Positions 25,401-28,400 of a stretch of 64,000 bases of DNA are shown here, one piece after another. Each line of letters begins with the position of its first letter. Position 1 is the stretch's first letter. The notes under the pieces were generated by a model. That model was not told where the DNA came from. It searched no databases and was given only the letters and a program-made list of their open reading frames with translations. Source of the DNA: Haliclystus octoradiatus (lineage: Eukaryota; Cnidaria; Staurozoa; Stauromedusae; Haliclystidae); NCBI GenBank assembly GCA_916610825.1, contig OU744446.1, forward strand, positions 39,825,636 to 39,889,635, in the 5' to 3' direction. Made by a program: the position numbers and the translations under genes.

Positions 25401-28400
25401 TTATTATTATTATTATTATTATTATTATTATTATTATTATTATTATTATTATTATTATTATTATTATTATTATTATTATTATTATTATTATTATTATTAT
25501 TATTATTATTATTATTATTATTATTATTATTATTATTATTATTATTATTATTATTATTATTATTATTATTATTATTATTATTATTATTATTATTATTATT
25601 ATTATTATTATTATTATTATCATTATTATTTATATAGAACTCTGTTCAAGTCAAGGACATTGTGAGAATTATTGATGGTCCACATGAGGTAAGTGCTGAT
25701 AGCTCCCTGTGTGTTCAATCTGCTATAATAATAACAATGTAATAATTTGTATAGCGCTAAGACTATAAAAATATTCAAAAATGCTGCTTAAAGTACTAAT
25801 ATTAGATTAAAAAGTCATAGTTATATATATATAAATAAATAAATGAATAAATATATAAATATATAGTACCAAATTACAATCAAGTGATGAACCACATCAT
25901 AGTTTTGCACCAGGGAATATATATAGATATATAAAAATTTGCACCGTTGCTCCAGAATTATGGAATCAATACTAAAAAGCCACAACAGGAACGTAACCAG
26001 TGACGCAGACAACAGCAATCAAGACAAGAACAAGAAATGCAATTGCAGATCGGCAGGTACGTGCCCACTACAGACTAAGTGCCAAACTGAAAGCCTCGTA
26101 TACAAGGCACTAGTAACAACCAACGAGGATCGACATGGCAAGGCGTATATCGGATTGACGGAGGGGCCATTCAAAGCACGCTACAATCAACACATGATGT
26201 CATTTCGAAACAAAAAATATGAACATAAAACCCGGCTATCAAAGTATGTCTGGAAGCTCAAGGACAGCAACACCGACTACGAAATAGAGTGGAATCCTAT
26301 ATGTAACGCCACGGCTTATTCAAATAAATCAAATAGATGCTACCTATGCCTGGCAGAAAAGTACTCCATCATTTGCACTAAAGGAAATTGCTAAATAAAA
26401 AATCAGGGTTGATTTCAAAATGTCGACATGAAAATAAGTTTTACTTATCAAATTTTAAAGCTACAATTAGATATCAACAATTAGATAATAGAACCATTGT
26501 AATTAAATTAACAATAGAAACTGCAATCAGATTCCTGTTCTAGCTATGTGTTAATGTGTATGTTTTTAATTGTAGTTAGTATTTGTTGTCTGATGATCGT
26601 TTAATAAGGTGAAACTTGGAGTTACAACCAAAGAATATGACTTTCTTGACCCTCTCATTATTATTACTATATAGATATATAGTTATCTAATAGCAAAGAA
26701 TATAGTGCTCAATGTCATAAATGGCAGAGCTTTAAATAATAATAATAGAAATAGAAAGGAGTCAGAGACCACACATTCTTATACTGTTACTTTAAGTTTC
26801 ATGCTTTTATAGCAATCATCAGACAGAAGTAAAACTATTAATGAAATAATAGACAGGAGTACCTCAGATTCAGATAAATATAATTGTTGCAGCTATTGTT
26901 ACTTCTTATCTTCGGTACTAGTTTTAGTTCTGTCTGATGATTGCTATAAAAGCATGAAACTTAAAGTTACAGTATAAGAATATGTGGTCTCTGACTCCTT
27001 TCTATTTCTATTATTATTATTATATGTAAATGTATTTATTATTTGTCTTGACTGAATGTAAAAGTTCGCAATGCCATACAGCAGAGAGTGTAATATAATT
27101 GAAAATAGTCAAAGATTAGTCATTAATTTAGCAAAATAAATGTCTAATTTTTACTATTTTTAATCATTGTTGTATACATTCAAACAAATACGAATATTAC
27201 AAATAAAATAAAGGTTGCTAGAAATACTTTGTAGATTTGCGTTACTTATAAAATAAACTTTTTAAAAATACTTTCCATAACTGATTAAAATAAAACTTAA
27301 TACCTTGCAATATGCTAAAATGAAGCTTGTTGAAATACTTTGCATTACACTGTTAAAATAAAAACTTGCTGAAATGGTTTAAGAGTTATTTTGAAAGTAA
27401 GATATCTTGAATAAATGAGTCTTTAAAGCTTTTTTTAAATGTCAATAGTAGCAGCGTTAAAAGCTCTTTGCGGGAGAGAGTTCCATTCCACGGGACCCGC
27501 AACTGAGAATGATCTGTCACCTAACGTTTTACAACGGGATCAAGGGACAATTAATGAATTACTATCGTCAGATCGTAATAAATAGGTTGATTTACAATTT
27601 CTTTTCAGTTGTAACATTTCAGAAATGTATTGTGGAGTTATTCCTTTCAAAGATTTATATACAATAGGCGCAGTTTTATACATAATGCGCTGCTTGATTG
27701 GTAACCAATATAGCTGTATAAGCGTTAAGAGGTAATGTGTTCATATTTAGGAATTATACAGACAACACGTGCTGCAGCGTTTATTACCTTTTGAACCCTG
27801 TGTAGCTGATTATCAGAAAGTCTGTATAGAAGAGCATTGCAGTAATCAACATTAGACGTGACAAACGCATGGATAAAGATTTTCGTTATGTCTGTATCTC
27901 CATTGATATGCTGCTTTATTATCATTCTTTTGTTTCAATCAGGGCAAGCAAGGAGAAATCAAACATCTCTACCGTGGCTTTGCCTTTGTTGCATCTAAAT
28001 TAGTCATGGAAAATGGCGGAGTGTTTGTTGTGAGGACGAAACATCTTATTCTGGCTGGCGGAGGAGGCGGGGCAGTGAGAAAAGAAATATACTTATTTCA
28101 TTTAATAATTTCAATGGATTTGTAATGCCACCTGATTGTTTACTGATTGATTGCAGGCATTTGGTGGTGGGGGAGGAGGCCGTGTCTTTGCACCGATGTC
28201 TCCCCGCATAGGCAGCCCAATGAGAGATGGTGAGAATGAACAATGGAACAACACACCGTTACAAGGTTCATGGGTATTTATCTAAAATGTTTGCTTTATT
28301 CTAGGTGGGGGTGACCGCGGAAGAGGTAGAGGGCGTGGTGGTGGCTCAATGGCAATGGGTAGAGGAAGAGGCTTCGCTAATCGTGACAACTCTCTTATTG

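Follow-up and report, generated by a model that had tools for sequence, protein, structure and literature searches.

A decayed Penelope-like hammerhead in an SPT5-like intron of Haliclystus octoradiatus and element copies beginning at its predicted cut in one family

The SPT5-like intron and its Penelope-like fragment

The window considered here, the whole 64,000-nucleotide stretch of Haliclystus octoradiatus DNA that was analysed, contains an SPT5-like gene, an intron of which holds a fragment of a Penelope-like element (PLE) and three hammerhead motifs (Table 1). The element is placed within an SPT5-like intron because the coding stretch that follows matches SPT5 chains (best E = 2.1e-11), a result that supports the location in a SUPT5H intron proposed by an earlier sequence-only reading. 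Two of the hammerheads, those of family B, share the intron with the family A copy that is the subject of this work and are better preserved; they are also the best of the nine matches with E up to 1 that our custom covariance model finds in the window.

Table 1. Features in and next to the element-bearing intron (window coordinates)
Feature	Position	Strand	Remarks
SPT5-like intron	25689-27942		GT/AG signals, by eye
155-aa open frame, putative GIY-YIG portion at the C-terminus of a Penelope-like ORF	25927-26394	+	
3' non-coding/pseudo-LTR end of the family A element	26395-26672	+	terminus near TCATTATTATTA, placed from the ends of matches to family copies
Minimal type I hammerhead, family A	26585-26628	+	stem I 26585-26589 with 26624-26628; predicted cut after 26623
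Two family B ends, inverted head-to-head	26735-27021		arms 26735-26845 and 26911-27021, 95% complementary
Second hammerhead, family B	26784-26826	-	58.1 bits, no damage to core or modelled stems; forms the left arm of the inverted pair
Third hammerhead, family B	26930-26972	+	56.9 bits, no damage to core or modelled stems; forms the right arm of the inverted pair
SPT5-like coding stretch, start of exon downstream of the intron	27943-28077	+	

The 155-aa frame was assigned by motif to what we take to be a GIY-YIG endonuclease. It is 60, 52, and 51% identical to the C-terminal parts of three long frames of the same genome (715, 734, and 743 aa), and of 2091 candidates in a genome search with it, 150 were scored, all of them listed as matches. 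Its YIG, R, H, and Cys residues, presumably the GIY-YIG endonuclease motif, are invariant across the four aligned sequences (the window frame and the three long frames). The long ORFs also contain FDIENFYPSIS and YRDDG, which we take to be reverse transcriptase motifs, a part that the window copy lacks; YIG and YRDDG in the long frames were identified by eye. Searches of domain collections were silent: Pfam, at E up to 0.01, gave no match and thus no GIY-YIG or reverse transcriptase domain in two long ORFs, NCBIfam gave none in one long ORF or in the window frame, and neither collection returned a GIY-YIG match for the window frame. The only Pfam match to that frame, a papillomavirus helicase model, was rejected, as its 15.9 bits fall below the cut-off of 26.5. 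A search of solved structures with the 715-aa ORF returned matches of E 0.33 and weaker only, tblastn against plasmids returned no match, and the predicted structure of the window fragment (pLDDT 37.7) was unusable. Because Pfam and NCBIfam name nothing in the ORFs scanned, the PLE label, here a putative one, rests on motifs and architecture.

The 155-aa frame breaks before its true C-terminus, and a coding remnant continues in another frame to 26459, occupying the first 65 bases of the 3' segment. The gap of about 140 bp that had been given between frame and hammerhead is therefore not the distance from the stop at 26394, which is 190 bp, but it comes near the ~125 bp from the last coding remnant. 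The broader proposal, a PLE fragment followed by a minimal type I hammerhead, is supported by relatives with long frames that carry the motif after the stop, 134 nt past it at locus L081 and 181 nt past it at L082. It is very probable that the window element is a 5'-truncated, decayed family A PLE in sense orientation within the SPT5-like intron, and that it bears a 3' pseudo-LTR hammerhead; the hammerheads of such elements would act as dimers, and the cut RNA may be reverse-transcribed.

Further hammerhead-like sequences are scattered over the window. At its edge lie head-to-head hammerheads at 1-32 (-), 34.6 bits and cut off by the edge, and 105-144 (+), 54.1 bits. Copies with damaged cores are found at 2888-2929 (+, E 2.6e-9), directly following an ATT array, and at 3161-3203 (-, E 3.3e-10), 21832-21876 (+, E 1.2e-6), and 51518-51549 (+, E 0.0011). 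A tandem array at 29331-31719 (214-bp unit, 11.2 copies, 98% matches) gives no hammerhead match with the covariance model. Just upstream of the element-bearing intron is a TTA array of ~100 units (25332-25630); PLE ends here often abut ATT/TTA runs.

The window hammerhead and its relatives

Read directly, the window motif consists of GTTGT (26585-26589), CTGATGA (26590-26596), the stem II region (26597-26610, TCGTTTAATAAGGT), GAAAC (26611-26615), TTGGA (26616-26620), GTT (26621-26623), and ACAAC (26624-26628). This reading confirms both the order of CTGATGA, GAAAC, and GTT and the 5-bp stem I claimed for it earlier, and the motif follows the type I core order CUGANGA ... GAAA ... UH. The CTGANGA version of the core occurs four times in the 64-kb window, where first-order Markov sequences would give 0.12. 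From 67 hammerheads of related families elsewhere in the same genome, the window copy excluded, we built a covariance model; it scores the motif at 49.9 bits (E = 1.8e-13). These two results confirm that the motif is not a chance occurrence.

The covariance-model support comes from this genome's own motifs and not from Rfam, which gave no match in the whole window at gathering thresholds and listed no hammerhead at E up to 10 over 26400-27100. The best Rfam matches were to microRNA models, which we rejected as an effect of inverted repeats. The silence of Rfam on the window copy says little, because Rfam also returned no hammerhead match in L081, L082, L074, or L070, though all four have intact cores. 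Single-strand folding was of no help: the minimum-energy structure of the window copy lacks the hammerhead shape, and 188 out of 200 shuffled sequences fold equally well or better (z +1.38). As a monomer, the hammerhead fold lies at +3.0 kcal/mol for the window copy and +0.4 kcal/mol for an intact relative.

The window copy is damaged in stem II, where G26599 stands opposite G26608 (G-C in most relatives), so that three of the four pairs at positions 2 to 5 are retained. The comparison comes from a family A search that used the motif and its flanks (201 bp) as query, scored 40 of 605 candidates, and listed at least 47 matches. Among 30 aligned copies, the window copy included, the whole core is kept in 22 and broken in 8, and all four stem II pairs are kept in 17; the concern that other copies might lack the core bases is thus not borne out. 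The window copy is a damaged member of a sound family. Because stem II has lost a pair and a same-family tandem partner is absent, the copy is probably weak or inactive.

The genome as a whole is rich in such motifs. The descriptor CTGATGA-N8-24-GAAAC-N3-8-GTH has 5650 matches, compared with 123 for a reversed control, and this strict census undercounts because variants such as CTGAAGA, the core of the PLE family with 721-aa frames at L165 and L166, are missed. We conclude that the window motif is a genuine though decayed PLE hammerhead, of a known kind, and that the genome has thousands of them. Minimal type I hammerheads of Penelope-like elements were reportedly the subject of work by Cervera and de la Pena in 2014. 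The minimal type I PLE hammerheads (Cervera and de la Pena 2014; Lunse, Weinberg and Breaker 2017), both works being cited in PMC7761336, reportedly share with ours the core, the tiny stem III, the location in pseudo-LTRs, numbers in the thousands per genome, and a proposed dimer action. There is no difference in kind, the window copy having one broken stem II pair. The window hammerhead fits the minimal hammerheads already published from PLE pseudo-LTRs and reported to act as dimers, an association that is known.

The relatives show the arrangement from which the window copy, with a 3' hammerhead only, is truncated. Two units stand in tandem at L082. Their hammerheads, at positions 1907 and 4431, lie 2524 bp from each other and both follow a stop by 181 nt; the second comes after the 734-aa frame. 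At L165, L166, and L167 the hammerhead lies upstream of the ORF start. Among these relatives the motif stands both before and after ORFs and in both L082 units, as expected of pseudo-LTRs. At G000:C7:20467799-20469294, four tandem copies of a PLE pseudo-LTR piece with a 379-bp period overlap the hammerhead region; it may represent an intermediate between a PLE and a satellite or an array of retrozyme type.

Two published systems invite comparison. According to the part of PMC11167929 considered here, PAc, a Poseidon element of Anolis, shares a hammerhead near the pLTR-ORF junction, tandem units, an internal reverse transcriptase start, and AT-rich targets. The PAc hammerhead overlaps the ORF start, whereas that of L165 begins ~206 nt before it. 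The endonuclease-containing Penelope of Adineta vaga, in the portion of PMC3846280 considered, shares head-to-head inverted pLTRs and has Asn-rich stretches in some ORFs; the word hammerhead is absent from that text. An open PLE-like frame at L083:984-3212 (-) likewise has a long N-terminal Asn run, encoded by a trinucleotide array.

Covarying stems and pairing between hammerheads

Conservation of the stems was assessed on 80 short regions of contig 1 around the first-listed descriptor matches, apart from the place in L015, which hold 100 sites, 86 of them distinct. In stem I, the first four pairs are present in 72, 70, 70, and 68 of the 86 motifs, counts matched by none of 2000 shuffles, whereas pair 5, present in the window copy, forms in only 22 and falls below the shuffles. 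Stem II pairs 2, 3, 4, and 5 form in 66, 77, 75, and 45; the last is not clearly above the shuffles, 234 of 2000 of which reach it. Pair 1 of stem II (24 of 86, below the shuffles) is mostly U.U (54).

An alignment of 67 motifs, drawn from the 100 sites by leaving out other loop lengths and duplicates, has an invariant core because the sites were chosen by core. Around that core 89.4% of pairing cells can pair, compared with 77.7% when shuffled and at most 50.3% when slid, and the covariation score is 0.390, compared with 0.186 and at most 0.130. Two-sided changes occur in 9 of 10 pairs over the three stems, a number reached by 4 of 500 shuffles, although the shuffles overstate significance because the aligned rows are related. 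Stems I, II, and III covary in this motif class, which fits the three helices of a hammerhead around its core.

Stem III has a further property. The stretch C-TTTAA-G and the family versions CTCCGAG, CTATTAG, and CTATAG are all palindromes. In the 67 motifs the innermost pair, around a single base, is UA in 31, AU in 13, CG in 10, UG in 3, another combination in 4, and a gap in 6. When the palindrome test was repeated on 22 sequence clusters, 41 of 47 mirror pairs of stem III were able to pair. Duplex pairing of six palindromic 7-mers gives -0.2 to -4.4 kcal/mol, whereas a 2-bp hairpin costs +3.8. The palindromic stem III lends itself more to pairing of one hammerhead with another than to hairpin formation, and such pairing explains the stem III covariation because a hairpin enclosing a single base cannot close. 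The idea is already known: the title of Lunse et al. 2017, as given in the part of PMC7761336 considered, states that PLE hammerheads cleave RNA as dimers.

For Haliclystus octoradiatus we infer dimer action, cutting in cells, and use of the cut RNA. Two hammerheads, in one RNA or in two, would pair through their palindromic stem III and cut after GTH. Transcripts of tandem copies would hold several hammerheads, since both units of the tandem relative carry the motif. Cutting at GTH would give an RNA with a defined 5' end, which the element's reverse transcriptase could copy from an internal start ~50-130 nt downstream.

Element copies beginning at the predicted cut

The match of one copy to L082 begins at 1938, the base immediately ahead of the predicted cut, and continues into the ORF, with one extra A preceding, and an inverted arm in L116 begins exactly at 1939 in L082 numbering. 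Starts in family beta were counted from genome-wide exact 19-mers whose three preceding bases are all unlike the family. Ten places start at +1, compared with none at -36, none at -17, one at +5, and one at +9, five counts that are not normalised to the number of copies carrying each 19-mer. The ten places, which exclude the L116 and L164 cases, represent seven loci, as three of them recur at a spacing of 7011 bp and a single head-to-head pair accounts for two. Because the triplets before the +1 starts (TAC, AGG, AAT, TCT, AAC, TAG, and CAG) differ among most loci, these starts look like separate events.

Such exact starts in one PLE family suggest that cut RNA is reverse-transcribed in nature. 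Our reading, offered tentatively and as somewhat short of an even chance, is that the hammerhead cuts in living cells, that the 3' cut product is itself a template for insertion, and that run-off of the reverse transcriptase where the RNA was cut leaves copies, some of them head-to-head, that start exactly one base after GTH. In this respect our case would differ from PAc, for which, in the part of PMC11167929 considered, the purified protein was able to insert RNA in vitro that had not been cut, and the cut site was neither the start nor the end of any RNA read.

Loci of mixed families show no significant excess exactly at +1, where 3 of the 88 breakpoints in -55..+25 fall (Poisson P 0.10), and two k-mer breakpoint maps disagree on the matter. 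The stricter map (59 breakpoints) has three at +1, from three families, and zero to two elsewhere in -60..+20, with larger clusters of 5 at -65, 4 at -61, 13 at +30, and 5 at +35; one of its three +1 cases (L113) is a retrozyme-type site. The looser map (225 breakpoints), to which the P value belongs, has larger clusters of 23 at -71 and 14 at +30, and one of its three +1 cases (L009, minus strand, 2137) seems spurious on visual inspection. A first BLAST breakpoint map was set aside as swamped by ATT and AT runs, as was a second, made without 21 repeat-bearing references, which still contained AT-run matches.

Starts at the cut site could also come from effects of DNA or reverse transcriptase and not from RNA cutting, either by a stall at the folded hammerhead or by snap-back self-priming of the cDNA through stem I (CTGT/ACAG), an explanation we consider rather unlikely. 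In its favour, head-to-head junctions are common: the 80 regions contain 17 pairs in which one hammerhead lies within 200 bp of the next, of which 13 are divergent, 4 lie on the same strand, and none is convergent. Self-priming has been proposed for such junctions in the portion of PMC3846280 considered. Mixed-family breakpoints, moreover, spread over -5..+25 (55 in 30 positions of the looser map, compared with 16 in the 30 positions -35..-6) with no peak at +1. However, stalling would be expected to leave ends where stem I begins, at its foot (+5), and family beta has a single place there as against ten at +1, and snap-back through stem I predicts CAG before ACAG, which precedes one of the ten.

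An improbable alternative is that the motif is an inert relic, a string conserved only for binding of an element protein or as needed DNA, with no cutting at all. The unstable monomer folds would fit such a relic, as would the published insertion in vitro, which in the part of PMC11167929 considered is independent of hammerhead cutting. The two-sided changes around the core argue against it, however, as do the family beta copies that begin at the predicted cut. That the window motif is a retrozyme hammerhead, part of a small circular RNA element, is very improbable: hammerheads of the GTC type, whose stem III stretch is 8 nt long, do occur in the genome (e.g. L081, L130, and L148), but the window copy and its relatives follow a GIY-YIG frame, and its 5-nt stem III stretch and GTT site set it apart from the retrozyme class, a short repeat with no ORF and a longer stem III.

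Overall, the evidence for hammerhead cutting from +1 starts is suggestive, and starts at the predicted cut site in one PLE family may be a new result. The passages of PMC11167929, PMC7229834, PMC6155905, PMC7761336, and PMC3846280 considered here make no mention of copies starting at a hammerhead cut site. The window locus itself is ordinary. If the reading of cutting in cells is true, however, the genome holds a countable record of ribozyme cutting, and if starts at the cut site do outnumber those at other positions, in-cell cutting would be readable from genomes with young PLE families and could be tested by counting.
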